Below are positions 14,529 through 52,076 of a stretch of DNA of 64,000 nt, one piece after another. The translations under genes were made by a program, and so were the position numbers. Every line of letters starts with the position of its first letter. Positions within the stretch are counted from its first letter, which is position 1. The stretch spans positions 1,116,001 to 1,180,000 of the forward strand of contig JAALGH010000011.1 in NCBI GenBank assembly GCA_011800155.1, given 5' to 3'. This DNA comes from Flammulina velutipes (lineage: Eukaryota; Basidiomycota; Agaricomycetes; Agaricales; Physalacriaceae). The notes under the pieces were generated by a model. The model did not search any database. It was not told the DNA's origin and saw only the letters and a list, made by a program, of their open reading frames with translations.

Positions 14529-15838
14529 ATGCTACACAATCACAGCGTCCTGCTTCACTTCTTCTTCCTCTTCTATGGAAAAACCATATTCACCAATGCG
14601 CTGTGAGTACTCTTCTAGATTTTGGCTCTTAGGCATTCAATATTCATCATTTCCTCAGTCCTGTTACGGTCACAGATGACTCGGAGTTGTCGTGGCGCGA
14701 CTTACAGGTCTCGCACAGTTTGAAAATCCTCGGCGAGGTGTACAACTTCGAGCTCCTCTCAGAAGCGGACCAGGGCTCTTACTCAAAAAGCTATGATGTG
14801 ATAGACGGATTCATTGCTGACGGTAAGCGCGTCCCGGCCATCTTGAAAGTCGTCATCGACTCAAAGGACGAGAATTCTAAAACTCGGAAAGAAATCCGCT
14901 ATCTTGGAAAGGTGGGCGCTACAATTTCCGAACGATGAAGTGTATTGAAGCTGATGATATACTCTACCCTAAGCCTACAGTCGGTCTTCTTTTGCACTGG
15001 GAATGGGTCGAAGAGCGTGCCAGCTATTATATTATCGTCAAAAACGTCAGGGAATTCGATCCGCCTTTCAAACCATTGTTTGAACACTATCTGGAAGACA
15101 CTGATTTGGTGGCTTTGGATGCTTTGAAGACAGCGAGAGAGACCGTGTTCGAGAAACTGGCTGACTTTGCTGAGAATGATAATCTCCTGTGCGTCGATCT
15201 CCTTCAGAATTACTGTATATTCTGCTCATTTAGCCATACGAACAGTTATTTCGATTTTCATCAACAGAATATATTCTTTGATAGATCATTGCAGAAGATC
15301 AAGCCCATAGATTGGGGACCGCCAGATTATCACGAAGGCGTCGAAGAAATCGTAGATCCGGGGAAAAAGGAGAGCGAGAAAAAATATCTGAAGTATAGGA
15401 TGGAAATAAAACTTCCAGAATACTACAGCCTTGACAAGCTCGAAGACGAGCTCTTTCTACGTGGCAAAGATTTGCGGCTGTAAGTTCAGAAGGTCAAACA
15501 ATCTTTGCAGACTCAAAACTCACGCGTACGATTTCAGCAGGGATAGGAATCGAACAGATTATTTCAACGGTGTTACTTACGACCTTGAGCGCATCGGTAT
15601 TGACAAGACGACGAAAACGTTTCAAATTTCTGGTGGGTTCAAAGGCAAGCCTGCTCTCATGAAGATCATCAAGGGGCTCGAAAATGGTTCGGACATCAGA
15701 CAAGAGCTCGAGGAGGTGGGAAGTCTGCTACAGCCATGAAATAGGCTAATGCCTTATTCGCAGAAGGGCCTTTATTTGGATAGCGAACAAGACAGTAAAT
15801 CTAAGCGATATTACATTATCATGAAAGATAACACGTAG
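14529..15838 (+). CDS. Predicted secreted kinase-like protein, copy 1
   Basis: The start MLHNHSVLLHFFFLFYG is a hydrophobic leader followed by a 3' splice into PVTVTDDSELSW. The kinase-like N-lobe has RVPAILKVV (beta-3 Lys) and SKTRKEIRYLGK (helix-C Glu). The C-lobe has SYFDFHQQNIFFD, matching the HxDxxxxN catalytic loop with Asp and Asn kept, and IDWG in the DFG position. After this comes a second partial N-lobe (TKTFQISGGFKGKPALMKII) spliced to YYIIMKDNT and a stop at 15838. The intron after LGKV needs a GC donor (14916), where copies 2-4 have GT, so its splicing may be impaired. The intact SRPK gene follows on the opposite strand. Secretion and activity are inferences. Confidence 0.65.
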
Positions 15839-15953
15839 GATCAGCAGGACTGATATGTAGGATAGGGTGATATACAATGTAGTGGTAGATATTCAGTATA
15901 CGAACTTGGCGAGAGTAGTATACTGGTATTATATTCTACAATTTTCTGACTTG

Positions 15954-17469
15954 TTATGATTGGAAGTGCCAATTATCAAGAGAGGAAAATGCATCTTCGA
16001 ACCAAACATCCTGCAAGAGCTCCGCTGCAGACGCTCTCGACTGGGGATCAATAGACATGCACCGTCGTATGAATCATGCAGACGAAAGAGCGAGGGGATC
16101 GGGGGATTTGGCCAAATGCTCTTCGAGCGTCCCATATAATGGCGATGCAGTAGGGCGCAATGCACGTAGTTGACCTGAAGACATATGAATATCAAGATAT
16201 GTCGCGCCACAAAACAAAACAGCTTGCCATCGTCGTCAAAAATTCAGCACGTCTACCACCGGTGCTCACAGCGACCGGGAATAGTCCTAGGAACTCGGCG
16301 ATGAGGGTGAGACGAGCTTGTGAGCTGTCCATTCCAGCAGGAGGTTCGACATCGAATATATGGTTGTTAGTAAACAGCTCGAAGGCCTGGAGTGTAGTAA
16401 GTAAATTGGATGGTCAGAATTGACGGTCAGATGTACGACTAACCATACAACCAACGGCCCAGATATCAACTGGTTTGCCCCAAGTGTGCCCCAAGGTTAT
16501 CTCAGGTGCGCGAAGAGTGAGAGGCATCGCCTCCGATTCATGTCTGCCGTTCTCCGGTCGTCCTTGAGGAAAGGGGAAGTTAGTTGTCACCCAAAGTTAT
16601 GTTGACAGGACCTCACCTTCACCAAAATCAGCAAGACAGATACTCATGGATTTCAGATCGATGTCTATTGGCTGCGATTTGGCGAAATTCATTGTCGGTT
16701 CATCGTGCGGCGTGTACGTCTCTGCTGGGCAGTCCCTGAGGTAGTCGGCAACAGACTCGAGTTGTCCGTCCATGCATACAAGCAGGTTCGACATCTTCAC
16801 GTCTGTGGACCGTGTAAGATGGAAGCGGAATAGCAGAAAAGCGGGCAGACTCACCTGTATGAACGAAATCGAGGGAATGGAGATGATCCAATGCAATAAG
16901 AGTTTGACGTATGAAGCTTTTCACAACCCGGACAGGCAATTGAATAAGACATTGGTCTAATCCGAGCCAGAGGTGACGGAGAGAGAGTGGAGCGGAAAGA
17001 CGAAACATGCATGAATGAGATCATCGCCGTTCCGTGTGACGAAGATATCAATGAGAACGGAACAGTGTGCGCGCGCCCCGTTTGATTTTTGTAGTTTAGT
17101 CATGATTTTGATTTCGTGGCGGGACTCGGTGGAGACTCTGGTGGTCGCAACATGGCTCAAGACTTTGATAGCGACGAGGTCACCGTCACTGAAGAACAAG
17201 ATTGAGCTCGTTGCAGAAATAGTAGCTCGGTATCGGACGTACCCTTCCCGTGCCATCCACACTGTAGCATTTGAGCCACCTCCAAGTTTGCGAAGTATCG
17301 TGTACTCAACGCCAGTGCGATAGTTGCTTTCCAACTTGGAGCCGAACTCCAATTGATAATACCCATGGTAGATGATGCGTGACGCTGGAGGAAAATCCTC
17401 ATATACAGCATCTGAGTTTGGTGCAGATGCGTCGTCGAGACTAGCAACCTTAGCCTGTGGTGCGGACAT
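15954..17469 (-). CDS. SRPK-type serine/threonine protein kinase
   Basis: The start MSAPQAKVASLDDASAPNS is followed by EYTILRKLGGGSNATVW (glycine loop). After an intron comes GDLVAIKVL (catalytic Lys). The catalytic loop is HTxDVKMSNLL, with the HTD variant typical of SRPK kinases in place of HRD. An acidic insert follows. The DFG motif is LADFGE, and the activation-segment end LRAPEITLGHTWGKPVDIW is close to the SRPK consensus. The C-terminus includes IDPQSRASAAELLQDVW. About six introns are used. Such kinases phosphorylate Arg/Ser-rich splicing factors, but agaricomycetes have many divergent copies whose targets are unknown. Its 3' end is copied as relics at 17.6, 25.6 and 50.6 kb. Confidence 0.85.
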
Positions 17470-17597
17470 GATTGACGATAATCGATGATGAGTAACATGC
17501 AAAAAGAGAAAGTTTTGATGCCGAGAACACGTGGATACTATATCCGTTTTCAGCCTGAACGGGAGTCACGAACTTTTGCTGTCTGATACTACTACTA

Positions 17598-18000
17598 CTA
17601 CATATGGTGACCAAGCGGATAGCAAGCATCTTCGAACCATACGTCCTCCAAGAGCTCCGCCGCAGATGCCCTCGACTGAGGGTCAATCGAGAGGCATCGT
17701 TGTATGTATTTGTCAATAGTTCGAACACCTGTTACTTGGAATTAGATGAATGGGAAATAGAGAACTGAGGGGCATGACTAAATGACTAACCATACAGCCA
17801 ACCTCCCATACATCGATTGGCCTTCCCCAAGGATGCTTGAGGATGATCTCAGGCGCGCTCAGGGAAGTGTCGAACATCTGCCACCGGCGGTTTTAAGCTG
17901 CCGTGCTTTGGAATTATGAGCTACTACACTACTACATAAAATGGCGCATGTTTTGCCTCACCGTCACCAAAGTCTGACAGACGGCTTGGAGCGAGACATC
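17598..18000 (-). pseudogene. Decayed SRPK-type kinase fragment
   Basis: Reading the minus strand, a DFGD segment near 17965 is followed by SAPEIILKHPWGRPIDVW, then an intron and FELLTNTYN. The sequence then jumps directly into RCLSIDPQSRASAAELLED, with loss of frame and of the region that separates these motifs in the intact gene. The N-lobe and catalytic loop are missing. It is a 3' remnant of a duplicated SRPK gene. Confidence 0.65.
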
Positions 18001-18055
18001 AAGGGGAGGTAATTGCTGCGAGTGAATAGCAATAGTAGCAACGGGAGCAGAAGAT
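17991..18055 (+). repeat. Direct repeat, first copy
   Basis: The block GACATCAAGGGGAGGTAATT and the following 45 bp match 18776-18842 with few changes, including the shared AGCAACGGGAGCAGAAGATG. It overlaps the start of the decayed kinase. Confidence 0.6.
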
Positions 18056-18218
18056 GACGATAAACTTGAAGGCTCAAGACACTTGATACGGGATGAAGTC
18101 GGCAATCTTCCCGCTGTACGGCTGATCTCGGCAAAAACCGATCATAGACTTACACAGGCTACAGCACAATGGCACGTGCCGATTCTATAGTGAACCACGA
18201 CGACACCGCAGAGCCACA

Positions 18219-21949: not shown

Positions 21950-23340
21950 GGGCCTCCCGTGAGGGAAGGAGGAAGAAAATAAGCTGTAGAGTGTGCATCA
22001 ACATGAGGATGATGGATGAGCACAAACAGTGACACTATCTTGCTATCAACCTTCACCAACAGCTGCTATTGAATACCTAGGCATTCTATGGATTGTTAGG
22101 TACGTCTGCGGTGTTACAGCGTCTCAACAGCATTCATTCAACGTATCAACAGTGATTTACTATCATCATGTATTCCCCTTTTCACAGCGGTCTCAACGAC
22201 GAAGCTGAGGACCTCAAAGGACAGGCCATAGCCACCTCATGTCCTCTGCAATCATAGGGACCTAATGACGCTCTCGAGCTGGACGTTATCCACGCAGACT
22301 TCAGGTTGACTGCAAGCTATGTACTTTGCCGAGAGCACGGAACGACGTGTCGGTCGACATCTATTTGGCTGGCCTCTATTGCTCGAGGCGACAGGCTTCT
22401 CCGAGCCCTTGTCCTGTATGTCTCGTCCATTTTACTCCGGAATCAATGTGCTAATTCTTCCCAGCCCGCTAAATATATTGGGCAGCAGCAATTGTACTCC
22501 TTCAGGCCTCAGGGTATTAAAATCTTGCTTTCGTTTGCACGACCGCGTCCGAAGATGCATACCGGCCTTCACTATGATTATACGTCGAAGATAAACTGAA
22601 TTTCAGAGCGCTACATGAACAAAATTTATGGCATCATCCTGGCGCCTCATATCCACCCATCTCTCCCCGCATTCCGGTTTATCCTGCGAAGGAATGATTC
22701 CGATATCGCCTGCCCTGGAACCCGCATCGATGTGCGGGGTGGCGAATACGGGGGTGGACAGCCCGACGGCAGCTCACTGTAGCGCGGTAGCGCTGTCTTT
22801 CGACTCTTTCGATGGCGCGGTGGTTTCTGCTCCAGGATTTGGTGCGCCGGGACCCATGGGACGCCGTGGAGTGGAATGGGAAGGTGGTCCTCTTTGTGGG
22901 ATTTCCGACCTCGGGCTCGGATTATCGTGGGCTTCCTGCGGAGAGAAGGGGCGTGGTGCTCGGTGGATGTGGAGGCTGGATTTGCCAGCGTTCCTTCTTG
23001 GAACGCGTTGGATGATATGGAACCAATGGGGCGGTATTGTGGCTGCTGCATTGTGATGAAGGTCTGTATTCGAGGCGATTACATTTATACAGTGCTTTTG
23101 TGGGTCAACTTTCTCAGCTTTGTCCCCTGGTTACATACGAGTTATTGTTTTCTTCAATGGGAACAAGGCCCAAGGACGATGAAAACAATAGTCATCACCT
23201 TCCATCATCCTTGTTTTCTATTAGTCCTTGTTCTATAACAATACGAATTATGATGATCCACACTCTGGACAGGCACCTATAACAATTTCGCCACTTTTTC
23301 TTCAACCCAAAGGTTCTTTTGATGTTTTCAATGCTACGTG
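21950..23340. other. Region without a supportable gene
   Basis: Open frames occur on both strands near 22.3-23.2 kb (a Pro/Arg-rich minus frame of 134 codons and overlapping plus frames), but none shows splice-linked continuation or a known motif. The GC content near 22.6-23.0 kb is higher than around it. A disordered-protein exon cannot be excluded. Confidence 0.35.
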
Positions 23341-23355
23341 TTGCTTTGATCCAGA

Positions 23356-23830
23356 CGTCCAGCGTTGAGTGTGGCGGTGGCGGTGCTGATCACGCTTGTT
23401 GCTCCATGTTTGCCTCACATTCAGCATGCAGTCTACGCGTCTCTTGATCCTACCTTCGGGACGATACGACGCGTTTTGCTGGAAGTTTGCATAATCACTC
23501 ACTGTATTTTTCTATTGAATTCCTCACTGTCTGCATCACTACGCTGTGGCGTTCGTATCGGCGCTTGGGTTGTTCGAACCCACCTCACTGCTTCAACTCT
23601 AAGAATCTACTGAACGTTTTGAACAGCCTAGTACTCCACGAACCGCGACCGGATGTTTTGGTCTTGGGCGTCTTCAGTCAGTATTGCCAGGAGCTTCATT
23701 TCTCCGAATTTGGAGACTGTGTTGACTGATTCATTATTAGCGATGCTTCATTCCTTCTTCTGTCCAAGTTTCCTTCCACCGTGACGGCGAAGGCTTTCGT
23801 GGACAGAGTTCACAATTAGCCTTCTCTCGC
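23356..23830 (+). pseudogene. 5' fragment of the UvrD/TRANK1-like helicase gene
   Basis: The sequence parallels the beginning of the helicase gene at 25.7-26.2 kb. The matching block runs from a TTGTTGCTCCATGTTTGCCT region through NLLNVLNSLVLHEPRPDVLV to the first splice region. Short deletions break the frame, and the rest of the helicase is absent. A matching fragment sits on the other strand at 49960-50530. Confidence 0.6.
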
Positions 23831-24244: not shown

Positions 24245-25381
24245 ATGCTACTACACAATCACAGCAGCCTGTTTCTGTTTCTTCACTTCTTCTTCCTCTT
24301 CTACGGCAGTACCATTTCTACACATGCGCAGTGAGTTATCATCCCGATTTTGGCTCTTAGGAATTCATTGTTTTCTTTCAGTCCTGTTACAGATACAGAT
24401 GGCTCGGAGTTGTCGCGGCGCAAGGACCCACCCGGCTTGGATTTCCTCAAAGATTACAAAACCGACTTACTCTCAGCAGCGGACCAAGGCCAACATTCAG
24501 AAAGCTATAATGTGGTAAATGGGTTCGTTGTTGGGGATAAGCGCGTCCCGGCCATCATGAAAGTTGTCCCCGATGTCGACAAAACCGACAACTCTAAAAC
24601 TCGGAAAGAAATTGAATTTCTCGGAAAGGTGGGTGCTGCGATTTGCAAAGAGCGTGTCATGAAGCTGATAATATACTCTACCCTAAGCCTGCAGTCAATT
24701 TGCTCTTGCGCTGGGGATGGGACGAAGGTCGCTATCATATTATCATCAAAAACATCCGGAAATTCGATCCGCCTCTCAAGCCATTGTATGAACACTACCT
24801 GGAAGACGATAAATTGGTGGCTTTGGATCTTTTGAAGAAAGCAAGAGACAGTGTGTTCAAGAGACTGCTTGAATTTGCTGAGAAGGATAATCTCTGGAGG
24901 ATGTTACGAAATCTTCCAAAAGACTACAGCATCGACAAACTTGAGGACGCACTCCTTATTCATGGCAAAGATTTGCGGGAGTAAGTTCAGGTCAAATAAC
25001 TTTACACACTTCAAAACTCACGTGTGTGATTGCAGGACGGATTGGAATCGAAGCATGTCTTTCAAGGGCACTTCTTACAAACTTCAGCGTATTGCTATTG
25101 ACCAGAAAACACAGTCGAAGACGTTTCAAATTACTGATGGGTTCAGAGGCAAGCCTGCTCTCTTGAAGACATTCAAGGTGTATAAAGAAGCTGATGACTT
25201 CCGACGGGAGCTCAGGGAGGTGGGAAGCGTTTTACAACCATGAACTAAACTCAGGCTGATGTTGTACCTGCAGAAAGACCTTCTCTTGGACAGTGACAGC
25301 AGCTTTGACGAAGACTGGTATCACTTCATTTATAAAGACGAGAATGCACGATCAGCAGGACTGACCAGTATTGACGTGTAG
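24245..25381 (+). CDS. Predicted secreted kinase-like protein, copy 2 (catalytic loop deleted)
   Basis: The leader is MLLHNHSSLFLFLHFFFLFY, then a splice into PVTDTDGSELSRRKDPPGLD. The N-lobe keeps KRVPAIMKVV and SKTRKEIEFLGK. A 62-bp intron (24633-24694, GT-AG) joins to VNLLLRWGWDEGRYHIIIKN. The C-lobe then runs LLEFAEKDNL directly into NLPKDYSIDKLEDALL, so the SYFDFH..N and IDW segments present in copies 1, 3 and 4 are deleted. The second partial N-lobe (FQITDGFRGKPALLKTFK) and the final KDLLLDSD...IYKDE tail remain, ending at 25381. The frame is otherwise open, so a shorter protein could be made. It would not be expected to be a kinase. Confidence 0.6.
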
Positions 25382-25650: not shown

Positions 25651-25878
25651 GTGAGATATGTGTTGCTTTGATCACGCATTGTGTGTGTGGCGGTGGCTGT
25701 GTTGATCACACTTGTTGCTACATGTTTGCCTCACATTCAACATGCGGTCTCCGCGTCGCTTTGCATCTCTTTATCCTACCTTCAGGTAAAGGAACGCTAC
25801 GACGCGTTTTGCTTGAAGTTTGGATAATCACCCACTGTATTTTGCTATTGAATTCCTTACTGTCTGCATCGCTACGCT

Positions 25879-28800
25879 ATGGCGTTCGTATCGGCACCTT
25901 ATCGCCAAGGGTTGTTCGAACCCACCTCACTGATATCGATAGAGGCTATCGACGACGCATTCGCTGAACTATACTGTAGCGTCACCACCAAAAATCTACT
26001 GAACGTTCTAGACAGCCTACTCCACGAACCGCGATTGGATGTCCTGGTTTTGGGCGTCTCCAGTCAGTATTTTCAGGCGCCTTCACTTTGAACTCTATGC
26101 TAACCGATCTATTAGCGATGCCCCCGTTTCTTCTTTCAGAACTCTTGTCCAAGTACCCTTCCAACCCGAAAGCTTTCTTGGACAGTGTTCACAATCAGCT
26201 CCTTCAACGGATCTCTCAGACGCTAATCCCGCATTTTTTCGAAGATGGCGAGGCGCCTATCGATTTCGCTCAGAGCCTTCGTATTGTCCAAACGGGCACT
26301 ATCATTCTTAGAGCTTTGGTGACGTTCAAGCCACCCAAGGAGCATATCGCTGACGCGGAGGCTGAAGCGACACCGTTCGTTATGCGTCGCGGTAAAACCA
26401 ACCAGAAGAAACAGAAACTGACAAGGCACGGAGGCGTTGAGAGTATGATCCCCGTTGTAGAAGACAAGCATTACGCTGTGCTTGAGATCACTTCCCCATC
26501 GACTCCCGCCGAGGTCTCTGACATCTTAGATCTCGTATTGGTACGACTTCGCTCGTTGCTAGAGGTAAGTCACATTATATCGTTCTGCAATATCGCGTTA
26601 CTTAACCCGTTGTAAACAGTTGTATACCTCCTACTTGCAAAGAGTTAAAGTATCCTCATCCTTGAAAGAACAAGCAGTCTACGTTCCTCCAAAATGGCCT
26701 GATGTTGGTCTAGCCAAGGAGGATACCAGCGACCAAAAACTTGTTGAAATGCCCGATACTGACACTGGTCCTGGGTCCGCTTTCCCAGCCATACAGCCAA
26801 TGAAGTCGTGAGTTTGGCTCTATATCGAGCAACGTACCTCTCATCCTCGTTGCAGCGCGCTGTATTTCGATAGTCCCAGCAGCTTTGGTGCGTGGAAAAT
26901 TGTGATCAGCAAGAGTGCGGACGATGCACTCCGGACTGCTCGCAAAAAGGATACGGGGACATTGAAGCTTATACTCAAGAAGATCAAGTGGGTATCGTTA
27001 TCCACCGGTGTTGAGCTACGCACTGAGTGGAGACTATAGGGACCTTTCCTACGGTCAATTTTCAGCAGACAACCAGAAGCGCTTGAGTAGCCCCATCTCG
27101 ACTGACGTGGCGATATACGAGGCGAAGATATCGCGCAGATTGCGATTGGTCGTAGGTACTTCTTGGTCCCGTGGCTTTCAGTCTTTGACGCTCTCCCTGC
27201 AGTACCAAATTGACTTGATTCCTACCGAGCACGATGTGGGTACGATACATCTTCCATTTGTGTAACTCTGACAGTATCACAGTGTGAGGAGCAAGTGATC
27301 AAGATCTTCGGCATCTACACGCATGCCCAAATGGATGACCGATTGTGGGCGTCGATTGGGAGTCAATTACGAAAGAAGGGTCCGATATACAGAGACCAGT
27401 AAGTGCTCTAACATTCTTGCTCTTCCAATGTTGATGAGATTGTTAGATGCGCAAGACGCAAACGGTCCGAGCACAACAACAGTGACCTGTTCGTTCCCGA
27501 GAGCTTCCCTGCGCTGCCTGAAATCGCAGGATCAGACGTCAAAAACCTTCCGGATCTGCTTCCTGATGACTCCGCCGAGGTAATACTTGATGTTGTTGGA
27601 GTGTAGGAATCTTAAGCTGATATTGTCGCAGGTTCATTCACGAATTGTGTACGTTGACTTTCCAAGCTTTTTTCAGAGGTTTACCTATTCTCAAGCGTCG
27701 AGAAATTCGTCATTTTCTCGAAGGTAATTTCATGGTGTTTCTCGTCAGCGTTGACTAATTCTGATTACAGGCGTTCCTTGACTGTAAGTTGGAAGATATA
27801 AATGATCTTTTATCCAAGTAAATTCTCTCTTTAGCGCTCAACGCTGACATCGAGGCGACATTTCCACACCTGGTATCGTAAGTAGTATCATTCGTCGTAA
27901 AGATCATCTAACGATCTCTCAATCTCAGCTCGCAAGAGAAGAAAATTATCGAGAATCCAACGTCATGCTACGTTATCGGTCGTAGCGGTACTGGGTATGC
28001 GAGTCCTCATCTTTGACTTTTCAACTCGCCAACTTATTATCATATCTAGAAAAACAACGACCATGCTCTTCAAGATGCTTCTCATCGAGCGAGCGTATAA
28101 GTTGCACGACGAAGTGCCCAAGCCCCGCCAGGTCTTCGTGACCAAATCGCGTATCTTAGCTCAAAAGGTGCAAGAATATTTCGAGAAGTTGGCTGTCACC
28201 TTGGACCGTACGTCCATGACGGCCCAACAACTGAAAGACGCCTCTTCCGTGGCAAATGATAAGGCGGATGCCACGCCTCAGGCCCTTGTTGCTAACAACG
28301 ATTTGGGATGGCGAGCAGACCTCCCTCGCCGCTTTAGCGAATTGGAGGATAAACATTTCCCTTTGTTCATAACCTTTGATGAGGTGAGTACCTGTTGTTT
28401 TTCCTTCGTCGTCAAAGTCCTCATCCTCGCAGTTGTGCGCACTACTGGAAGCCGATATCCCAGTCGCAAGGGATGCAACGGGACAGACTGTCGAAATCGC
28501 AAGAAAGATGATAAAGTACGAGGACCACTTCGTCCCACTGTACTGGGCACACTTTTCGGAAACAACACGCAAAGGCTTGGGTGTGTATTGAATCAGGCAG
28601 ATGGAAGGTAGCTAACTGATTATCTTCGTCTAGACCCGGCTTTGGTCTTCAGTGAGATCATTGGTGCGCTAATTCATCTTGGGCGATGAATTGCTAATCT
28701 AACATAGAGTAGGTGTAATCAAGGGCTCCGAACAGAGCCTGAAAGAAGAGAAGAGGTTTTTGAGCAAGGTGGCATACACCGAGAGCTCCAGTGACCGCCA

Positions 28801-35404: not shown

Positions 35405-37692
35405 ATGGCAGATTTTCAGTCACGGTGAGCAGAGTCATTCAACACGGCGCAACAATCTAAAAATTCTCTACAGTTTAAAAGAATACTGCGAAGAATATGA
35501 GCTCCTCGAGGAGTTCGACAACAACGCTCTATACACCGCACTGGGCCGCACTGGAGAGCACCCGGTGATTGACCAAGTCGTCTTCGCATCCTCAAGGAAA
35601 CAGCTCGCCCGCATCAGCAAGGATTTGGATCGCGACATAGCTTCGCTCGTTGAAGCGCTTGCCAAGGTGACTCGATACCGGAAGGATTGGACTGGCGCCG
35701 ATAAAATTCTACTACGAGCTCTCGAGCATGATGCATGGGCCGCAAACAGCTCAAAGGCGACAGAGAGCACATTGGATATTCTGTCAGTAATTCGGTACCG
35801 ATTTATTACGGAATGTTTTCTTATTATTTCAATCATTCATTTCCAGATTAAGAGAACAATGCGAACGTTTCGCGCCTGGTGGTCATGCTGATGATGGTTG
35901 GGGGTACCCGTTCCATAATCACCCCTCATATATTCGTCATGTACGAGTCTTGATCGACCTGGCCTACGTGAAGGATTCCATGAAGGCTGCCCTCCGCATC
36001 CTCATTCGCTGCAAGTGTTCCTGTAGAAATCTCCAACGCGACTACAAGGCTGCGCTATCTCCCTTTCGCCGGTTTCCCGCAGAAATCCTCCTCGAAATAT
36101 TTCACTGGGTCCTCGATTTCCAAGGCAAGATAATGCTCGGTAACAGCCCGACTTTCTTTGATCGAGCGCGGCCGCGTCTAGGACAAGTTTGTCGTCAATG
36201 GCGCGCAATAGTCATTAACAGTGGCAGTTTGTGGTCGACGATCAACTATCTTTGGTCGGAAAGGCAGCTATCGTCTTTATATCCTGACCCAACAGGGTGG
36301 GTCCCGTGTGTACACAGAGTGCAGCGCGATCTGCAACTCACGCACCAACATCCTATCACACTCACCTTACATCGACTATCCGACAAGGCTGATCACCGGA
36401 AACCACTTATGCTTCTCGCGAAACGCGCTCCTCAGTTTCAACATATCACCATCGTCGATGCAATCCCGTATTGGGGCAAATGGTTGGATCAAATCCAAGT
36501 GCCATTCCCCCTGCTTAGATCACTCACACTCTCCTTCTCGGACAATACACTTAGGGATGACAGTTACACCCAAGTTGGACCACCAGATCTTCCGTGTAAC
36601 TCACTGCTTCAAGCGCTACAGTTGGTTCGTCTCACACTGAAGTACGAGGACAACAATAACACCGCACTCGAGGCATACATCACTCTTCCATTTCCACAGT
36701 TCCGAGAATGCTACCTTACTTCGAAAGGCCCTTTTCCCTCGTTCTTCTTATCCATACTAGACCGTTGTCCAGGCCTCATCAAGTACCTACAATTCAGTGC
36801 GGATCCTATTCCGTTCAAGTCACCGACAGCCTCCCATGCCCACCTGCGCATCGAGCGTTCCCACCTTGTAGAATTGGCGACGTGTTCCATTGGGGCTCTC
36901 GACGCGTTCACCTTCCCCAATCTCCGATCTTTGCTTGCTGGCCAGAACGCTCCCAGCTCCGGCTCTCTAAATCATACCTACCGAAAGGCGAAGGAGCAGG
37001 ATGAGCTCATGGGGTCGATATACCGCATGCTGGATGCCTCCCGGTGCTCTTTAACGGCCCTCGTCTTGGAGGGGGTCAGGTTGGATGTGCTATTCATGCG
37101 TGTACTTCGCGCACAGCGGTCTCTTGAGCGACTGGATGTCTCGTTGCAGTCATGGCTTTTTGCCGAGCAGGATGAAATTCTATCCTCGTTCTTTGCAGAA
37201 TTGGGAAGACGGCAAGATGTGGGTGGCAATTTCACCTTCCTCCCCTCGTTGAAGATCCTCGATCTATGTATCAACCTTCACAAAACCGGCAGAATAGGCT
37301 ACCAGCGGGGGGTCGAGAACAAGGATCACATCCATTTCAGCTTCGCGGACGCCACGCTCCTTAGCAGTATCGTTGCTCGTTCCGAGTCGATGACTCCCTT
37401 CAGTTTTGGTCTCAAAATGGTGGGGGATCGGATAACGTGGTCGCTTACGGATGAGCAGACGCTGCAACTTGAATCGCTTGACTGTGTCAAGGAGATTTTT
37501 TTGTGGCCAAATTGTTTAATTCCGGAATACGATGATCACGGCGGGGATTGCCTTTCAGACAAGGATCGTGATTATTTTGACTCTCTTGTCTGGAAGCCTA
37601 ATTATGAGGCCCATGGGATGATACAGAGCAAGGAGGAGACGATGATGATGGAGGGTGAAGAGGCGTTGTTGAAGGCGATAGGGTCTCAATGA
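35405..37692 (+). CDS. F-box protein with leucine-rich C-terminal region
   Basis: A short first exon (MADFQSR) is joined by a 49-bp intron to LKEYCEEYELLEEFDNNALY, and a second intron (about 35783-35846) leads to one long exon to the stop at 37692. The F-box core is LSPFRRFPAEILLEIFHWVL with VCRQWRAIVINSGSLWSTI, the usual agaricomycete form. The remaining ~450 residues show irregular Leu-rich strands (FPQFRECYLTSKGPFPSF, FTFPNLRSLL) like degenerate LRRs. F-box proteins recruit substrates to SCF ubiquitin ligases through Skp1. The N-terminal ~200 residues, with paired helices, are unlike the typical short N-terminus and have no assigned role. Confidence 0.85.
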
Positions 37693-37868
37693 TGATCTAC
37701 TCGACATCCTGCTGGAACAATGACTGTATTATTTACTTTTCCGTTTGTGAAGAACGTTGTAGGTACACAAGAATCATATCGGAATATGGGAGAGAGCCAT
37801 GTCGACAACAGTCATATTCTACTCTATCTGATACATTATTGGGATTAGGTGGGGACATTCTCCTGCGA

Positions 37869-39093
37869 TTATGTGGAAATAAAAACAGATGGTTCTGAAA
37901 AGCACCTCGAATCCATACCAACAAACCAATCCTCACTGGGCATCCAGTCTTTCCATGCATCCCCGACTTCCTTTCTAATGTTGTCTGCCTCGTCCTGCCA
38001 TCTCTGCCTCATCTGTATCCACCAAGTCATCGGGTGAAGATGCGCGACGCGCGTCATGATAGCGCAGTAATGAGCAGCAATAACGAGAGCCCGCGGACGT
38101 CGCTCCCACAGCAAACGCAAATAGTCGTCCGATATGAGGACGACCCAAGCGAGGTATTGCATCTCGTTTCCCACCTCAGATGAAGCCGCCAACATCCTCT
38201 TCGTCATTCGAACGGCCTCTGCGTAGGTCTCGGACACGCGGGGATCCATAACCTCCTCAGGATCAGGGGTTCCGGCAGACGGCAGATGGATTGTGGATAG
38301 GTAAGGGGGTAGAGGGCCATGCTGCAGGTCGAGGGCAGTGGTGTGTCGATAGCTATGGGAGATGTTGCGTACTAGTGGACCTATGGGGCCCACGGCATAT
38401 TTGTTCCACACGTTTACCACTGTAGATGGAAAGCGAGAGCGGATGAGGCGAATCCACTCGGGATCGTGCAGGGACTTGGACGTGAAAAAACTGTACAGCG
38501 CTAAAAGTAGATGGCTAATGAAGCTGACCCCCAATCCGTCGGTTGTGTTCATTCCGATGTGAGACGCCCGTTTTGCATGATCGAAATGTGTCGCAGCGGT
38601 GTAGCGATACCTCAATGAGAGCGTCGGTTCGGATTGTATTTCCGACAGATGTAATGCCGACATCGCAAACATGGCGTGTAGAAGGAAATGCGCATGGGTC
38701 GAGAAGGCCAGTGAAGGTATAGTAGTTTTCCAGACTTCAACGAGGTCTGGGTGGTACCCGTGCAGCGAATAACATGCAACGTTCGTATAGTGGTGCATAA
38801 GCTCGAGCGTAGGCAGGTCCATAGAGAATGTTGACACGGCCGATACTGCGGTAAGCGGGTCCGGGGTGTTGTACATCGGGCTCGCTGTTCGAAGAGCGGC
38901 GTTTGTGGATTCAGCCCAGATGCATTCAATTTCTCTCTTTAGACAGTTGTTGCAGGCCGGGAATTCCTCGCTGCACTGTAACCTGTTCAATTAGAGCAGG
39001 TACTCGTCAGATGAGTAGACTCACCTTTACTCTACGCTTTCTACAGGTCTTGCAGCCAGTCTTTGTTTTTTCATGACTTCGTCTTGGTGGCAT
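37869..39093 (-). CDS. Zn2Cys6 transcription factor, UPC2-like, tandem copy 1
   Basis: Exon 1 encodes MPPRRSHEKTKTGCKTCRKR. Splicing to the next exon completes the zinc cluster with spacing C-x2-C-x6-C-x6-C-x2-C-x6-C (ending CLKREIECIW). The regulatory domain contains LELMHHYTNVACYSL, typical of the sterol-uptake-control (UPC2/ECM22) family, and ends with MTWWIQMRQRWQDEADNI. The product is about 390 residues. It binds DNA in the nucleus; ligand and targets are unknown. Two close paralogues follow head-to-tail upstream on the same strand, giving a three-gene tandem array. Confidence 0.9.
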
Positions 39094-39179
39094 AGAGGAA
39101 ACATTACACCGGCAAATATGCGGCAGACCTCGTAAGCATGCTAAGTCACCGTTAGTGATCTACGGTCAATAGCTGTGAG

Positions 39180-40434
39180 TCATACATGAGTGATATTAGG
39201 ATCCTTCTGCGATTCTGTAGAAAGAAAAATGGATGGCTCTGAAAAGCACATCGAATTCACCCCAACGAACCAATCTCCACCGGGCATCCAGTCCTTCCAT
39301 GCATCCCCGACTTCCTTCCTGATATTGTCTGCCTCGTCCTGCCATCTTTGCCTCATCTGTATCCACCAAGTCATCGGGTGAAGATGTACCACGCGCGTCA
39401 TGATAGCACAGTAATGAGCAGCAATAACCAAAGCCCGCGGTCGTCGCTCCCGTAAAAAACGCAAGTATTCGTCCGATACGTGGACGACCCAGGCGATGTA
39501 TTGGATCTCGAAACCCGTCTCGGACGACGCTGCCAACATCCTCTTCGTCACTCGAACAGCCTCTGCGTACGTCTCGGACACATGGGGGTCCATGACCTCC
39601 TCGGGATCGGGAGTGCCTGCGGTTGGGAGATGGATCATGGAAAGGTAATCGGGTAAAGGACCATGCTGCAAGTCGAGGGCAGTGGTACGCCGATAGCTTT
39701 CGGTGATGTTGAGTACCAGTGGACCTATGGGCCCCATGGCATATTGGTTCCAAACATTTTTAATAGAGGAAGGAAATCGAGAGCGAATGAGACAGATCCA
39801 GTCTGAATCGTGCAGGGACTGGGAGGTGGAAAAGCTATACAGCGCAACAAGCAGATGGCACACGAAGTGAACTCCCAGCCCGTCTGTTGTTATTCCACCG
39901 CTAAACGCCTGCTTTGTCTTATCGAATTGCGTGGCGGCGGCATAGCGATACCGGAGGGATATAGTCGGTTCGGAATGTGTTTCTGACAGGTGCAACGCGG
40001 ACATGGCGAACATGGCGTGTAGAAGGAAATGCGCCTGGGTAGAGAAGGCTAGTGATGGTATAGCAGTTTTCCAGACTTCGACGAGGTCGGGGTGGTAGCC
40101 ATGCAGCGAATAGCAGGCAACGTTCGTATAGTGGTGCATAAGCTCAAGCGTAGGTAGGTCCATAGAGAATGTTGATACAGCGGATACTGTGGTGAGCGTG
40201 TCTGGACTGTTGTACATTGGGCTCGCTGTTCGAAGAGCGACATTGGTGGATTCAGCCCAGATGCATTCGATTTCTCTCTTTGAACAGTTACTGCAGACCG
40301 GGAATTCTTCGCTGCACTGTAACCTGTACAATTAGAGCATGTACTCGTCAAATGAGTAGGCTCACCTTTACTCTACGTTTTCTACAAGTCTTACAGCCAG
40401 TCTTCGTTTTTTCGTGACTTCGTCTTGGTGGCAT
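39180..40434 (-). CDS. Zn2Cys6 transcription factor, UPC2-like, tandem copy 2
   Basis: The gene has the same two-exon structure as its neighbours, with ATG at 40434 and the cluster completed by CSEEFPVCSNCSKREIECIW. Differences from copy 1 are concentrated in the middle region (for example KTKQAFSGGITTDGLGVHFV), and the C-terminus is ten residues longer (TESQKDPNITHV). It lies 87 bp beyond the start of copy 1, so its terminator and the copy 1 promoter share a very short spacer. Confidence 0.9.
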
Positions 40435-40565
40435 GAAGGAAACATACACCGGCAATTTAGGCGGCAAACCGCTTCGACTCATATACTAGGTGATCTGGTT
40501 TATACGAATGACAGCTGTGATGCTATTCTATGTGATACATGATTGATATTAGAATCCTCCTGCGA

Positions 40566-41790
40566 TTATGTAGAGAGAAAAATGGATGGCTCTGACAAGC
40601 ACATCGAATCCATCCCAATGAACCAATCCTCACTGGGCATCCAGTCCTTCCATGCATCCCCGACTTCCTTCCTGATGTTGTCTGCCTCGTCCTGCCATCT
40701 CTGCCTCATCTGTATCCACCAAGTCATCGGGTGAAGATACGCGACGCGTGTCATAATTGCGCAGTAATGTGCAGCAATAACCAGAGCTCGCGGCCGTCGC
40801 TCCCACAGCAAGCGCAAGTAGTCGTCCGATACGTGGACGATCCAAGCGATATATTGTATCTCGAAACCCACCTCGGACGAAGCTGCCAACATCCTCCTCG
40901 TCATTCGGACGGCCTCAGCGTACGTCTCGGAAAGATGAGGATCCATGACTTCCTCGGGATCAGGAGTGCCAGCGGTTGGGAGATGAATCGAGGATAAATA
41001 ATGAGGTAAAGGACCATGCTGCAAGTCGAGGGCAGTGGTGTGTCGATAGCTGTCGGTGATATTGAGTATCAGTGGGCCTATGGGCCCAGAGGCGTATTGG
41101 CTCCACACATTCTTGACACCGAAAGGGAACCGCGAGCGGATGAGGCGAATCCATTCGGAATCGTGGAGGGAATGGGAAGTGGAAAAGCTGTATAGTGCCA
41201 AAAGCAGATGGCTCACGAAGCTGACGCCCAGCCCGTCGTTTGCAGTCCTTACGAGGTCAGACTCCCGCTTTGCATGATCGAAATGTGTCGCAGCGGTATA
41301 GCGATACTTCAATGAGAGAGTCGGTTCGGATTGTATTTCTGACAGATGCAATGCCGACATGGCGAACATGGCGTGTAGGAGGAAGTGCGCCTGGGTAGAG
41401 AAGGCTAGGGAAGGTATTCCAGATTTCCAGATTTCAACGAGGTCTGGATTGTAGCCGTGCAGCGAATAACAGGCAACATTCGTAAAGTGGTGCATAAGTT
41501 CGAGCGTGGGCAGGTCCATAGGGAACGTTGACACAGCCGATACTGTTGTGAGCGGGTCTGGGCTGCTGTACATCGCGCTCGCCGTTCGAAGAGCGCCATT
41601 TGTAGGTTCGGCCCAGGTGCACACAACCTCTCTCTTTAGACAATTGTTGCAGACAGGGAATTCTTCGCTGCACTGTAACCTATACAATTGGACCAAGTAT
41701 TCATCGAAAGAGTAGACTCACCTTTACTCTACGTTTTCTACAGGTCTTGCAGCCAGTCTTCGTTTTTTCATGACCTCGTCTTGGTGGCAT
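40566..41790 (-). CDS. Zn2Cys6 transcription factor, UPC2-like, tandem copy 3
   Basis: ATG at 41790 starts MPPRRGHEKTKTGCKTCRKR, followed by the same intron position and CNNCLKREVVCTW to finish the cluster. The regulatory domain keeps LELMHHFTNVACYSL and the MTWWIQMRQRW tail. Copy 3 has a variable segment ESDLVRTANDGLGVSFVSH where copies 1 and 2 differ. It is the first gene of the array in transcription order. All three are intact, which suggests selection for retention or a recent duplication. Confidence 0.9.
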
Positions 41791-42182
41791 AGGGGAAAGA
41801 TGCATTCCGGCATTTGGGCGGCAATATTCTTATTAGTCTCTCAATGTCATGCCACACCAACTCGTACCACACAGGGGCTTATTTCTCAAGGCTATGCTTG
41901 GGAATTGCTTGGGACATGCCCTTGGCCTCGCGCTCTTTCTGTACGTTACAGTGGCACTGTTGCAAAATAGAAAGTCAACTCATGCATCATAGGCCAGTCA
42001 GCCTGCTCGAATTACGCTTGACTTCGAAGGTACTCCATTTCACATCAAAAGATCATAAATTGGGAGCATGTCTGTGCCGACGAGTATCACGCACGATAGT
42101 TGAGCGTTTCTCGATTCGTTTATGAATACATAGTACAAACAAACATACATCCTATAGCCAGATAAATTCGTAGTACAGATAT

Positions 42183-44395
42183 CTACACCTCCCTCTCCCT
42201 CCTCTCGTCAATCGTATCAAGAGGTGCCTGCTCGATTCTCTGCTCAATCAGCCCATCCTTGTTAGCCTCCGCCATCATTGGGTTGTCAACGGCAGCTGAA
42301 GCATGCGCGGTACCAAAGAGGTGATCCATAGCCTCCAAAGGTAACTCCTTTGTCTCCGGGATGAAGAAATACACGAACGGTGTCGCACACATAAAGATGG
42401 CACCGAACTACGCAGGCTATGAGTTTGCGTGGTCAACTGATCAACGGGAGACGAGACGTACGATGAAGTATGTTCGTTCACTGATATTGGTCAACGCCAC
42501 AGGCATGATGCGAACAATGGCGCTGTAAAGATGGAACGTCAGAGAGCAAAAAAGGAGTCATTGGACGGGACGTACAACGTGCAGAGCCACTGCCACATTA
42601 AACAGAAGGTCATGCTAAGCGCTCGGAAGCGCATCGTGAAGATTTCAGAGATAAGCGTAAGCGGGACGGAATTGTACTGCGCAAGTTCAGGTCAGTTAAT
42701 AGAGATAGGCGGGATCTTGGAAATCACGTACACCGAAGCAGTAGATGGCTGCATACAAGAAGATCGCAACGATGGCGGTGTAATCTCCGGGTCTCCGTCC
42801 TTGACCTTCATCTCGAGGACCTGCGCCGGCCAAATAGCCCCCAATGTACCAAAGGCACAGCGAGCCGATGGTAGATCCCACCATGAGTGGTCGCCGCCTA
42901 CCGATCCTATCGACGATAAAGAAGCCGAAAATCAGCGTGCATACTACTTTGACTGATCCATAAATTCCAGTGGCGAACCTATGGCGAAGACGTCAGATTG
43001 GTTGTTCAAATTCCGCCGGCGCGATACTCACAATTTGTTCTGCTGCCCTTCGAATCCAAGCTGCTCGAAGATTCGCGGACTGTAGTAATTGACGGCCTGG
43101 ACGCCAGAGAAGGTTTTGAAGAACTTCGGAGTGGATGTCAAGATCACGGACAACGGGAGTGAAACAGAATTCCTACCAGCAGCGCTAGACCGAGGCCCAT
43201 TCTCTTTCCGTGATCCCTACTCGTGAAGAGTTCCTTGACCAAGTCTAAGATACTTGCATTTCCCCGAACGCGCTCCTCGATGTCAAGCTGCTCGCGCGTC
43301 TGCAGAAGCTCCCACTGCACGTACTCGTGGTCGATGGGCAGCTTGCGTACGCGAGAAAGAGTCGTAGCCGCCTCATCATATCTCTGTGAGCACGATGTCA
43401 GCAGCTTCCGAAAGTATTTTGGGCCCAAACCCACCTTCTTCATCATGAGGAACCTAGGCGTCTCCGGAACGAAGAACATTCCTACAAGAAGGATGCCCGC
43501 AGGGAAAAGCTGAACTGCGCAGGGGAACTGCCATTGGAATCTGTTCTCCGAAGAGACCGTGTTGACGATAATGTAGTTTGCCCAAAAGCCAAAGATAGTC
43601 CCGACTTGGATGAAGATGTCGTAAAATCCGACTATGCGGCCACCTGTTTGATATGAACGTCAGTGAAGCGAAAGGTAATCGATGGGAGAATGGCGTACGG
43701 ATGGGCGCAGGCGCGAACTCGGATAAGTACACTGGAATGACCAGGGAAGATATACCAATGGCCAGTCCGCCCAAAAAGCGGCCTCCCACTAAGTCTCGAT
43801 GTTAGCTTGGTGCATGCTTGAAGAGATCGTATACCATACTCATAAGCGCAAGAGAGCCATCAGCAAAGACCTGCATGAATCCAGAGACGATGAAGATGAT
43901 GTTCGACACGATCACCGACCACTTCCTCCCAAACCTTTGCGTGAACGGCAGCTGCAGCGCCGCACCGAAAAAGCTGCCACCCTGGAACAGAGAAACGAGG
44001 TTCGCGCTGATAGCGTCCCGTTCGTCCGACGGCTTGTCCAGGATCCCAAAGTCACGCTGAAAAGAGTTCAGCGCGATCGTGCCGCCGAAGAAGCCAGTGT
44101 CGTATCCTGAATGAATTGAACTAAGTATACGGACCCTCATCAGCCACAGGACGGACATACCGTAGGCTGCAGCGCCCATACACATAATGATGGCAATGAG
44201 ATAAGTCCCAAAGTTGTTCACCTCCTTGGGCACAGGTGGCGCAGTTGACTGGACAGCAGCGAAGGTCTTTGCGTGCGAGTCAGAAACCGAAGACTTCATC
44301 GTAAAACTTTTCTTCAGCCCAGGCGTCGAACCTTCTCCCTTTTGGATGGAAGACATGTCCGACTGGGACGTGAACGTAGAGGCTCGTTTCAACAT
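42183..44395 (-). CDS. MFS sugar/quinate-type transporter
   Basis: The start MLKRASTFTSQSDMSSIQKG is cytosolic and polar. Helix 1 is NNFGTYLIAIIMCMGAAAYG, followed after an intron by YDTGFFGGTIAL. Sugar-porter signatures are present: FGRKWSV, GRFLGGLAIGISSLVIPVYL, PETPRFLMMKK, and in the second half IDRIGRRRPL-like VDRIGRRRP and FIPETKELPLEAMD. Twelve helices are expected at the plasma membrane. The long central loop and GGRFLGG..AIGISS form resemble fungal quinate permeases, but the substrate cannot be read from sequence. About seven short introns. The ATG was chosen because the upstream frame lacks one. Confidence 0.88.
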
Positions 44396-48281: not shown

Positions 48282-49579
48282 CTAAGCATGTCTTTCGTCT
48301 TTACATATAAAGTAATACCAGTCTTGTTTAGAGTTGCCTTCACTGTCCAAAAGAAGGCCTTTCTGCAAATACAACATCAGTTTAGTTCATGGCTGTAAAA
48401 CACTTCCTACCTCCTTGAGTTCCCATCGGAAGGTAAGACCATCTGCATACTTCATCGTCTTCATGAGAGCAGGCTTGCCTTCGAACCCACCAGAAATTTC
48501 AAAGGTTTTTGTTCTCTGGTCAATTTTAGTACGCTCAAGGTTGTACGCAATGCCATGGACAGATAGTGTTCGATGCCTATCCCCCCTGGAATCACACACA
48601 TGAGTTTAAAGTGTAAGGCTGTTTGACTTTGAACTTACGGTCGCAAATCCTCGCCACGCTCAATGAGTGCGTCTTCAAGTATCCCGATACTGTATTCATA
48701 TGGAAGATTCGCTAACATGTTAGCCTTCAGATCCTGTATCTCGCTCTTTTTTCCCCCCATATCCACGATTTCTTCGACGCCGGCGTCATCCTCTGGCGGT
48801 GCCCAATCTATGGGCATGGCCGTCTGCAATGACTTATCAAAGAATATGTTCTGTTGATGAAAATCGAAATAACTGTGTGGATGCCTAGTAATCAGCGGGA
48901 TTTACAGGAACTCGGAAGGAGATCGACGCACAAGAGATTATCCTTCTCAGCAAATTCAAGCAGTCTATCGTGCACAGTAATACTTGCTCTCTCCAGAAGA
49001 TCCGAAGCCACCAATTTCTCGTCTTCCGTGTAGTGTTCATACAGTGGCTTAAGAGGCGGATCGAATTTCCGGACGTTTTTGACGACAATGTAATAGTAAT
49101 CTCCGTCCCATCCCCAGTGCAAGAGCAAATTGACTGCAGGCTTAGGGTAAAGTATATTATCAGCTTCATGACACGCTCTTTGCAAATCGCAGCACCCACC
49201 TTTCCGAGAAATCCGATTTCTTTCTGAGTTTTAGAGTTGTCGGGTTTGTCGACATCGGGGACAACTTTCATGATGGCCGGATGCGCTTACCGCCAACGAC
49301 AAACCCGCCTTTCACATTATAGCTTTCTGAATGTTGGCCTTGGTCCGCTTCTGGGAGTATCCCGAATTCGTACTTTTTGAGGAAATCCAAGCCGGGTGGG
49401 TCCTTGCGCCGCGACAATCCGGAGTCATCTGTACCCGTAACAGGACTAGGAAACAATGAAGGCCTAAACGCCAAAATCTAGATGATAACTCACTGCGCAT
49501 AAGTGAGAATAGTACTGCCATAGAAGAGGAAGAAGAGGTGAAGAAACAGAAACAGGCTGCTGTGATTGTGTAGTAGCAT
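48282..49579 (-). pseudogene. Secreted kinase-like family, copy 3 (frameshifted)
   Basis: The gene has the family layout: leader MLLHNHSSLFLFLHLFFLFY, PVTGTDDSGLSRRKDPPGLD, N-lobe, catalytic-loop motif SYFDFHQQNIFFD, IDWA in the DFG position, and a second N-lobe (FEISGGFEGKPALMKTMK), ending at 48282. At about 49278-49280 one base is missing relative to copy 4 (ATCCGG in place of ATCCCGG), which shifts frame inside the beta-3 strand before the Lys. Downstream exons remain otherwise open. It is probably a recent pseudogene; a sequencing error would restore it. Confidence 0.6.
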
Positions 49580-49959
49580 GCGATTTGCGATTTGATGGAC
49601 TACGTGGGTGGGGATAGGAGGGAGATTGCCCATCAGCGGCCTTATTTAGCTGGATATCGCTTGGCAGCCACGATAAAGCGACGATCCGTTGCGTAGCCGT
49701 GCGCACAGCCAGAAGCGTAACTCGTAGCAAAGGTTTCCTAGACATTCTTGGGGCGCCGCCAGTGAGTGCTGAACGCTGAACATTGAGCATGATTATAGGG
49801 TAAATATTCGAATTCAAGTTAAAGGTTGCTCACCTATTAAATTTTATATTTCGCCACTTGGTAGTGTATGGGTACAGATTCAGTACGGCCGAAAGTCGTG
49901 GCAACTACCCCGTCGGCATCGTTATCTCGTCGATATCACGACAGCACCGCCGCTAGCTG

Positions 49960-50530
49960 GTACTGGATGCACACGGAGACGCCATTCCGCTCGCTGATTG
50001 TGAACTCTGTCCACGGAAGCCTTCACAGTCACGGTGGAAGGGAACTCGGACAGAAGACGGCATGGTGGCATCGCTAATGAATCGGTCAGCATAGTCTCCA
50101 AATTCAAAGAAAGGAAGCGTTGGGCAATACTGACTGGAGACGCCCAAGACCAGGACATCCGATCGCGGTTCGAGGAGAAGGCTGTTCAAAACGTTCGGTA
50201 GATTTTTGGAGTTGACGCTACAGTATAGTTCAGTGAATGCTTCGTCGATAGCAGTGAGGTGGGTTCGAAGTTGAACCCGGGGCGATTTGAAGGTGCCGAT
50301 ACGAACGCCATAGCGTAGAGTAAAGAATTCAATAGCAAAATACAGCGGGTGATTATCCAAACTTCGAGCAGAACGCGTCGTAGCGTTCCTGAAGGTAGGA
50401 TCAAGAGACGCGAAGCAACGCGTGGACCGCATATTGAATGTGAGACAAACACGTAGCAACAAGCGTGATCAGCATAGCCACCGCCACATACAATGCATCC
50501 GTCGCCTGGATCAAAGCAAAACATAACTTA
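49960..50530 (-). pseudogene. 5' fragment of the UvrD/TRANK1-like helicase, inverted copy
   Basis: The minus strand carries SVNSKNLPNVLNSLLLEPRS and DVLVLGVSSQYC, matching the first exon of the helicase at 25879. A deletion of about 13 bp after the ATG-equivalent breaks the start frame. The sequence ends soon after the region equivalent to helicase intron 1. It sits between kinase-like copies 3 and 4. Confidence 0.65.
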
Positions 50531-50535
50531 CATTG

Positions 50536-50645
50536 GGCGGTGCACGTCTGTTGATCCCCAGTCATGAGCGTCTGCGGCGGAGCCCTTGCAGGACATTTGG
50601 TTCGAGTATGTATTTTCCTCCCTCGATACTTAATTGGGACATCCA
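50536..50645 (+). pseudogene. 3' exon relic of SRPK-type kinase, inverted copy
   Basis: The plus strand encodes the degraded counterpart of the SRPK C-terminal exon seen at 25543-25650, in opposite orientation, again between a kinase-like gene and a helicase 5' fragment. It is the landmark that shows the two segments are an inverted duplication. Confidence 0.65.
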
Positions 50646-50764
50646 ATCATGACGGCAAGTCATAATACTGTAAGTCGTACTTATACCACTCCCGTTGAAA
50701 AAAATCTAAGGTACTTTTCATTCATATTCCAGTAGTGAGGAGCACGGTGGCGTCCGGAACTCTA

Positions 50765-52076
50765 CTAGATACCTGTATCTACCACTACTGGAACTGATGT
50801 GTTACCCTCCGTCCCGTGTCTCACGTCTTTGTAGATAATGTTATACCAGTTTCGTTTAGAGTTGCCTTCACTGTCCAAAAGAAGGCCTTTCTGCAAATCC
50901 GATATCAGTTTAGTTCATGGCTGTAAAACACTTCCCACCTTCTCGAGCTTCGATCGGAATTCATCACCTCTTTCATACCCCTTCATCATCTTCAGGAGAG
51001 CAGGCTGCCCTTTGAACCCATCAGTAATTCGAAATGTCTTCGCTATCTGGCTATAACCAGTGCGCCGAAGGTAGTAAGTAATGCCATTGACGGACATACT
51101 TCGATTCCTATTGATATCCTCCCTGCAGTCGTTTAAAGTGTGTAAGGCTGTTTGACATCGAACTTACGGCCGCAAATCCTTGCCACGCCTAAGTAGTGCG
51201 TCTTCGAATTTGTCGACGCTGTATGTTGTTGGAATATTTGCTTCCATTACAGCCTTCAAGCGTGCTATCTTGCTCTTCTTTTCTTCCTCATTCACGATTG
51301 TTTCGACGCCGTCGTAACGACCTGGCGGTGCCCAATCTATGGGCATGACCGTCCGCAAATCCTTATCAAAGAATATGTTCTGTAGATGAAAATCGAAATA
51401 ACTGTTCGGATGCCTCGTATGTCAGCGGTGATTCTGAAAGAGATCGACGCACAAGAGATTATCCTCCTCAGCAAATTTAAGCAGTCTATTGTACACAGCA
51501 AGTGCTGCTGTCTCCAAAAAATTCGAAGCTACCAATGTATCGTCATCCAGGTAGTGTTGATACAATGGCTTGAGAGGCGGATCGAATGCCCGGACGTTTT
51601 TGATGACAATGCTATAGCAACCTTGGGCCCATCCCCACTGCAAGAGCAAATCAACTGCGGGCTTGGGGTAGAGTATATTATCAGCTTCATGACACTTCGC
51701 AATCGCAAGCACCCACATTTCCAAGAAATTCGATTTCTTTCCGAGTTTTAGATTGGTCGGTTTTGTCTTCGTCGGGGATGATTTTCAGGATGGCCGGGAT
51801 GCGCTTACCCCCAACAACGAACCCATTTACCACATTATAGGTAACTGAATGTTTGCCTTGGTCCGCTTTTGGGAGTTCCCGTAATTCGTACCCCTCGAGG
51901 AATTCCACGCCGGGTGGGTCCTGGCGCCGCGACAACTCTGTATCTGTAACAGGACTAAAAGAAAACAATGAATACCTGAGTGCCAGAATATAGAAGACAA
52001 CTCACTGCGCATAAGTGAAGATGGTACTGGCGTAGAAGAGGAAGAAGAAGCGAAGAAATTGATTGTGTAGTAGCAT
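50765..52076 (-). CDS. Predicted secreted kinase-like protein, copy 4 (best-preserved copy)
   Basis: The leader MLLHNQFLRFFFLFYASTIF is spliced to PVTDTELSRRQDPPGVEFLE. The N-lobe has GKRIPAILKII (Lys) and SKTRKEIEFLGN (Glu). A GT-AG intron is followed by VDLLLQWGWAQGCYSIVIKN (hinge-like). After SNFLETAALAVYNRLLKFAE comes a short intron and NLLHPNSYFDFHLQNIFFDK, with catalytic Asp and Asn, then MPIDWAPP in the DFG position (Gly replaced by Ala). The second partial N-lobe is AKTFRITDGFKGQPALLKMM, ending in SKRNWYNIIYKDVRH and a tail to 50765. All splice sites are canonical and the frame is open throughout, so this is the reference member. Extracellular kinase-like function is inferred. Confidence 0.7.

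Follow-up and report, generated by a model that had tools for sequence, protein, structure and literature searches.

The window analysed here, a stretch of 64,000 nucleotides of the Flammulina velutipes genome (assembly GCA_011800155.1, contig JAALGH010000011.1, positions 1,116,001 to 1,180,000), contains four related copies, c1 to c4, of a gene for a predicted secreted kinase-like protein that carries a second, partial N-terminal lobe (N-lobe) behind its kinase domain. The initial annotation of the letters placed the copies at 14529–15838, 24245–25381, 48282–49579 and 50765–52076. Computational gene models, in which GT-AG introns of 45–62 nt were spliced, agree with these positions, and the spliced genes of c1, c2 and c4 start and end exactly where the annotation had them. 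The spliced proteins comprise 342 (c1), 305 (c2) and 353 (c4) amino acids, with the stop codon in the last exon of each. All five introns of c1 were recovered by a spliced aligner with c4 as the query and c1 DNA as the target, together with one extra intron at the 3´ end that is probably spurious. The copies are held by duplicated segments that lie on both strands, include flanking DNA and share 71–81% DNA identity over 0.35–1.8 kb, which excludes chance resemblance.

c1 (14529–15838, forward strand) and c4 (50765–52076, reverse strand) are the only intact copies among the four. Exon 1 of c1 (14529–14602) encodes a signal-peptide-like leader with a hydropathy of 2.28, exons 2–4 (14659–14911, 14974–15188 and 15246–15479; together 14659–15479) encode a complete kinase domain, and exons 5–6 (15538–15715 and 15764–15838; together 15538–15838) encode the N-lobe-only second unit, which stops at the hinge. 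c4 has the same arrangement: a leader in exon 1 (52006–52076; hydropathy 1.85, otherwise ordinary-looking), a complete kinase domain in exons 2–4 (51717–51954, 51453–51661 and 51168–51401; together 51168–51954) and the second N-lobe in exons 5–6 (50939–51122 and 50765–50890; together 50765–51122). The forward-strand c2 retains a leader (exon 1, 24245–24330; hydropathy 2.6) and an N-lobe-only second unit (exons 4–5, 25036–25381), and its kinase domain (exons 2–3, 24382–24980) lacks both the catalytic loop (YFDFH) and the IDW/DWG motif. c3 (48291–49579, reverse strand) is frameshifted in exon 2 (49200–49445), so that its frame stops after 87 amino acids; the later exons are recognisable, and a second N-lobe matches at 48291–48545. 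The leader, the β3 Lys, the helix-C Glu and the second N-lobe described by the initial annotation are thus present in the gene models, whereas a catalytic loop and an IDW motif in all four copies, as it had claimed, are not. The Ser placed at the start of the loop came from reading through intron 3, and the spliced loop most likely reads L/F-YFDFHxQNIFF. By eye, the metagenome protein P0002 agrees with c2 upstream of the loss and retains the region missing in c2. Intact relatives therefore exist, and the loss of its catalytic region is likely to be recent or a difference between strains.

To characterize the kinase domain, an alignment of 18 family members (32–59% identity to c4) was compiled. 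These were hand-picked from 26 of 43 dissimilar domains, themselves taken from the 51 best-scoring. The P-loop Gly and Ser, Lys36, Glu52, Asp131, Asn136 and Asp150 are invariant in this alignment, an invariance that exceeds that of the whole family because of the selection. Across the whole set, all five catalytic residues (Lys, Glu, Asp, Asn and the DFG-type Asp) are present in 54/69 kinase domains: 23/26 of those followed by a spare N-lobe (the broken c3 included), 23/27 of the single domains, and, in genes with two kinase domains, 7/8 of the last and 1/8 of the first domains, one or more residues being absent from the first domain in the other 7/8. The profile of the 18 members matches CK2-alpha in the PDB with E=1.7e-5, and the best 60 of its 131 matches are all CK2-alpha chains, which bears out the kinase-like assignment. 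Single sequences fare differently in Pfam: c1 and c2 have no match, c4 hits an unrelated model under its cut-off, and the 18 members yield APH (PF01636) in 3 (best E=0.0068) and Pkinase in 1 (E=0.0099), nothing in c1, c2, c4 or the 18 being better than E=0.0068. In NCBIfam the best match is MphB in one member (E=0.0067). The initial annotation could not name the family, and no named family was found in Pfam or NCBIfam at better than E=0.0067.

The second unit is an N-lobe only, homologous to the first. A profile-profile comparison of the spare lobes of c1, c2 and c4 with the kinase domains gave a probability of 98.3% over 79 columns, against a maximum of 5.5% in 60 column shuffles. A set of 20 spare lobes (L055, L062, L063 and L065 were left out) gave 99.3%, a value that is partly circular because most of these lobes had been found with the kinase profile. 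A phase-0 intron lies between helix C and β4 in both N-lobes, after amino acids 109 and 318 in c1 and 103 and 312 in c4, and an intron occupies the equivalent place in 21/27 spare lobes family-wide, in line with the matching introns noted initially. The match to the spare lobe ends at profile position 80–106 in 22/27 cases, earlier in 5 and never beyond 110, and no unit ends between an N-lobe and a full domain. With introns ignored, the reading frame runs on for no more than 28 codons past the match in 26/27 spare lobes and for 47 codons in the remaining one. The P-loop Gly is kept in 3/27, the Lys in 13/27, the Glu in 13/27 and all three in 1/27, which indicates that the spare N-lobe is very probably non-catalytic.

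The window copies belong to a much larger family than the four members first proposed. With c4 as the query, its own 38-Mb genome yielded 142 exon-level matches at E≤1 (115/162 candidates scored). The four window copies and 40 genome places (of 51 chosen), searched with a profile made from the first-pass results, contain 61 strongly diverged gene-like chains, a lower bound for the family. The 61 chains comprise 26 with a single kinase domain, 25 with a kinase domain followed by an N-lobe-only unit, c3 with the same plan and a split first lobe, 7 with two kinase domains, 1 with two kinase domains and an N-lobe, and 1 with a kinase domain and a C-lobe piece. The spare N-lobe is therefore present in 27/61 chains, which may be an underestimate, as the C-terminal tails of L051 and L047_2209, both counted as single-domain chains, resemble the spare lobe by eye. 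In a kinase-domain tree (without L063 and c2), 20/24 rows of the kinase-plus-N-lobe type fall into one group of 21 with a support of 94 in the Shimodaira-Hasegawa-like approximate likelihood ratio test, just below the tool's starred level; the remaining member of this group is L051. The spare lobe thus occurs in a large clade and in a few members outside it and is not a local accident; the homology claimed for the two N-lobes holds, and the unit extends well beyond the window copies. As to whether the spare lobes arose once, a 92-column N-lobe tree (without L063, c3 and spare lobes shorter than 40 residues) needs 3 changes for 23 rows, which is suggestive only.

Intron positions recur across the family. 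The kinase domains contain an intron at profile position 66 in phase 0 in 64/69 cases and at position 135 in phase 2 in 67/69, 41 of the 48 leader-bearing genes have a phase-2 intron behind the leader, and in many domains a further phase-2 intron lies at position 214 or close to it. Phase-2 introns on both sides of the unit mean that tandem copying keeps the frame, which would explain the chains with an added N-lobe, a second kinase domain or both. Four two-domain members, in L044 and L043 (G000:C7:2073000-2080000 and 2089500-2095500), have N-P/T-N instead of Y-x-D in the first domain and a complete second domain; judged by these residues, they are predicted pseudokinase-kinase pairs in tandem.

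In the protein database, the family was found only in what looks like this species, in a search that covered no annotated fungal proteome. A protein database search with whole c4 or its spare lobe returned no match, and a search with the family alignment returned five proteins, each of which is best matched by a domain of this genome (65–88% over 78–170 amino acids). By eye their differences lie largely in unspliced introns, which points to metagenomes that contain this species or a sibling of it rather than to a wider spread. No family member was confirmed by tblastn in prokaryotic and viral collections queried with one member (the L040 domain). Among the matches listed from the open-access full-text literature, a scope that excludes subscription journals and preprints, no paper on such a family or on an N-lobe-only domain was found.

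Entry into the secretory pathway is indicated by the leaders and by the cysteine content, both counted over the 60 genes other than c3. A signal peptide is expected of secreted kinase effectors of the rhoptry kinase (ROPK) or CRN8 type, and a search for the start of highest hydropathy, an intron being allowed, gives a hydrophobic leader (hydropathy of at least 2.2) in 48/60 genes; among 300 shuffled controls the rate is 2.3%. By eye, many leaders close with A, and R/H/L-P comes next. Cys accounts for 0.21% of the family residues, in contrast to 1.94% in ten other open reading frames (ORFs) of the window, and the domains are Cys-free in 35/60 genes, a pattern in keeping with proteins that avoid free cysteines because their compartment is oxidising. 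Counted likewise without c3, N-glycosylation sequons are a little rarer than in shuffled sequences (49 versus a mean of 62, the lowest shuffle having 49), and KEX2 processing sites after the leader are not enriched (12/50 versus 11.9 expected).

Selection was estimated from the ratio of nonsynonymous to synonymous substitution rates (dN/dS), again without c3. In the two best-constrained pairs the dN/dS of the spare lobe is 0.30 (90% range 0.17–0.58) and 0.22 (0.10–0.54), and in seven other pairs it is 0.49–1.27; the 90% range lies below 1 in 4/9 pairs and includes 1 in 5/9, and the pairs are not independent. The kinase domain gave 0.20–0.62 in eight pairs, 0.67 in L039-L040 (a thirteenth pair, without a range) and 0.94–1.26 in four pairs (W4-L039, W2-W4, W2-L039 and W1-W4), all of whose ranges include 1. 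Values near 1 in these four pairs reflect either diversification or relaxation, and the two broken window copies favour some relaxation there.

Compared with known systems, the family is closest to the eukaryotic protein kinases, and to CK2-alpha in particular, with which it shares the identity and order of the motifs: P-loop, Lys, helix-C Glu, D-x-x-x-x-N loop and DWG. In contrast to these kinases, typical members have YxDxHxxN instead of HRDxKxxN, add a leader, scarce Cys and a second N-lobe, and fall below the sensitivity of Pfam. FunK1 (PF17667), an expanded kinase family of mushroom fungi, makes up another large expansion of kinase type in this genome, with 116 exon-level matches (107/177 candidates scored); none of the matches listed lies in the window, and c1, c2, c4 and the 18 members have no FunK1 match. 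Membership in FunK1 was rejected, as the C-lobe exons of 7 FunK1 loci align with the family at a probability of 10.7% over 20 columns of the catalytic loop. Published accounts describe the rhoptry kinases of Toxoplasma and its relatives as expanded, lineage-specific, secreted kinases and pseudokinases (PMC3682881), and CRN8 of Phytophthora infestans as an exported kinase effector of a filamentous microbe that is reported to dimerise (PMC3426532), so that exported kinase families do exist. Compared by description only, the ROPK proteins belong to another lineage and have an N-terminal extension rather than a C-terminal spare N-lobe (PMC3682881), and CRN8 is an oomycete protein, a CRN effector of modular build whose kinase domain is of the RD type (PMC3426532). 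The KIND domain is reported likewise to reuse a single kinase lobe as a non-catalytic module; it is a C-lobe, whereas the spare unit here is an N-lobe joined to its own, probably active kinase, which would make it the mirror image of KIND.

Taken together, the window would hold two intact and two broken members of a lineage-specific, expanded family of the protein-kinase fold that enters the secretory pathway. An intact member would consist of a signal peptide and one complete, probably active kinase domain, to which the clade of the window copies adds a C-terminal second N-lobe ending at the hinge. The spare lobe most likely arose from the copying of N-lobe exons, with the frame kept by phase-2 introns before, and often after, the kinase domain; since then it may have been retained as a non-catalytic accessory that most likely packs on the active domain or joins two molecules and so sets activity. 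We infer that these proteins are most likely released from the hypha, with proteins of another organism nearby or of a competing mycelium as their phosphorylation targets, as is the case for exported kinase effectors elsewhere. We prefer this explanation, a lineage-specific set of exported kinases that are probably active and carry an N-lobe-only, non-catalytic accessory module, at a little short of an even chance; the function is deduced from sequence. That the spare lobe has become a lasting accessory domain which regulates the active kinase or pairs it, as part of an undescribed arsenal of dozens of secreted, rapidly diversifying kinases in a mushroom-type fungus, is somewhat less likely than not. 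If it is true, a large family of exported kinases in a fungus raises the question of where the ATP and the substrate come from, and one genome offers a natural set, 27 chains that bear the N-lobe-only module beside 26 that have one plain kinase domain, in which the effect of the module on kinase activity can be compared.

Several points weigh against the preferred explanation. Exported kinases require ATP at the target. The leaders were judged by hydropathy rather than by a trained predictor, and 12/60 genes, c4 included, fall below the threshold of 2.2. Two of the four window copies (c2 and c3) are broken, and the dN/dS near 1 in the four pairs of the window subclade may reflect relaxed constraint instead of an arms race. 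In addition, structure models of two contiguous pieces are too poor for use (mean predicted local distance difference test scores of 42.6 and 44.0).

The main alternative is that the kinases remain in the lumen of the endoplasmic reticulum or Golgi and act on the fungus's own secreted proteins or glycans, like the Fam20-type kinases, with the spare N-lobe as a regulatory partner. The leaders and scarce Cys fit any secretory compartment, the catalytic residues are complete and ATP is present in this lumen; however, 61 strongly diverged chains in one genome are many for a housekeeping role, and the lumenal kinases known to us are few per genome, which leaves this alternative rather unlikely. It is improbable that the second N-lobe is a decaying, functionless leftover from an internal duplication which the gene tolerates at its end. 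The patchy retention of its P-loop Gly, Lys and Glu, the 26/61 chains with a single kinase domain, the two broken window copies and the dN/dS ranges that include 1 would fit such a remnant, whereas a spare lobe whose frame stays open as far as the hinge even in paralogues that have diverged widely, with dN/dS values in the two best-constrained pairs like those of the kinase domain, would not. Small-molecule phosphotransferases of the APH/choline-kinase type are the least probable: despite the APH hits outnumbering Pkinase among the 18 members and the MphB match, APH membership is not supported so far, as the profile of the same 18 retrieves CK2-alpha, c1, c2 and c4 have no APH match and no PF01636 match of the genome falls within the window, so that on these comparisons a protein kinase is favoured.

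The window has further features besides the kinase copies. A further repeated stretch borders the copies at 23335–23820, 25657–26199 and about 49950–50525; its ORFs (25980–26612, forward, and 49956–50468, reverse) have no Pfam match. ORF pieces at 16597–17565 on the reverse strand resemble an ordinary protein kinase by eye (GGGSNATVW, VAIKV), and the one ORF scanned there (16960–17565) matched no Pfam family. A transcription-factor gene of the Zn2Cys6 type is present in three tandem copies at 37816–41824, with 83–85% DNA identity; both of the two copies scanned match Zn_clus, one of them above its cut-off. The window also contains a G-alpha piece just below its cut-off (7484–7816), an F-box-like protein (35791–37689), a sugar transporter (43147–43659) and a WD40/coatomer-like protein (54364–55392). 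Coprinopsis cinerea was rejected as the source species, the best match of its peroxidase having 54% identity, and no 5.8S rRNA was found. The genome as a whole has 36 exon-level AA9 and 13 exon-level GH28 matches, counts that point to a decomposer of litter and not to a pectin-rich pathogen.

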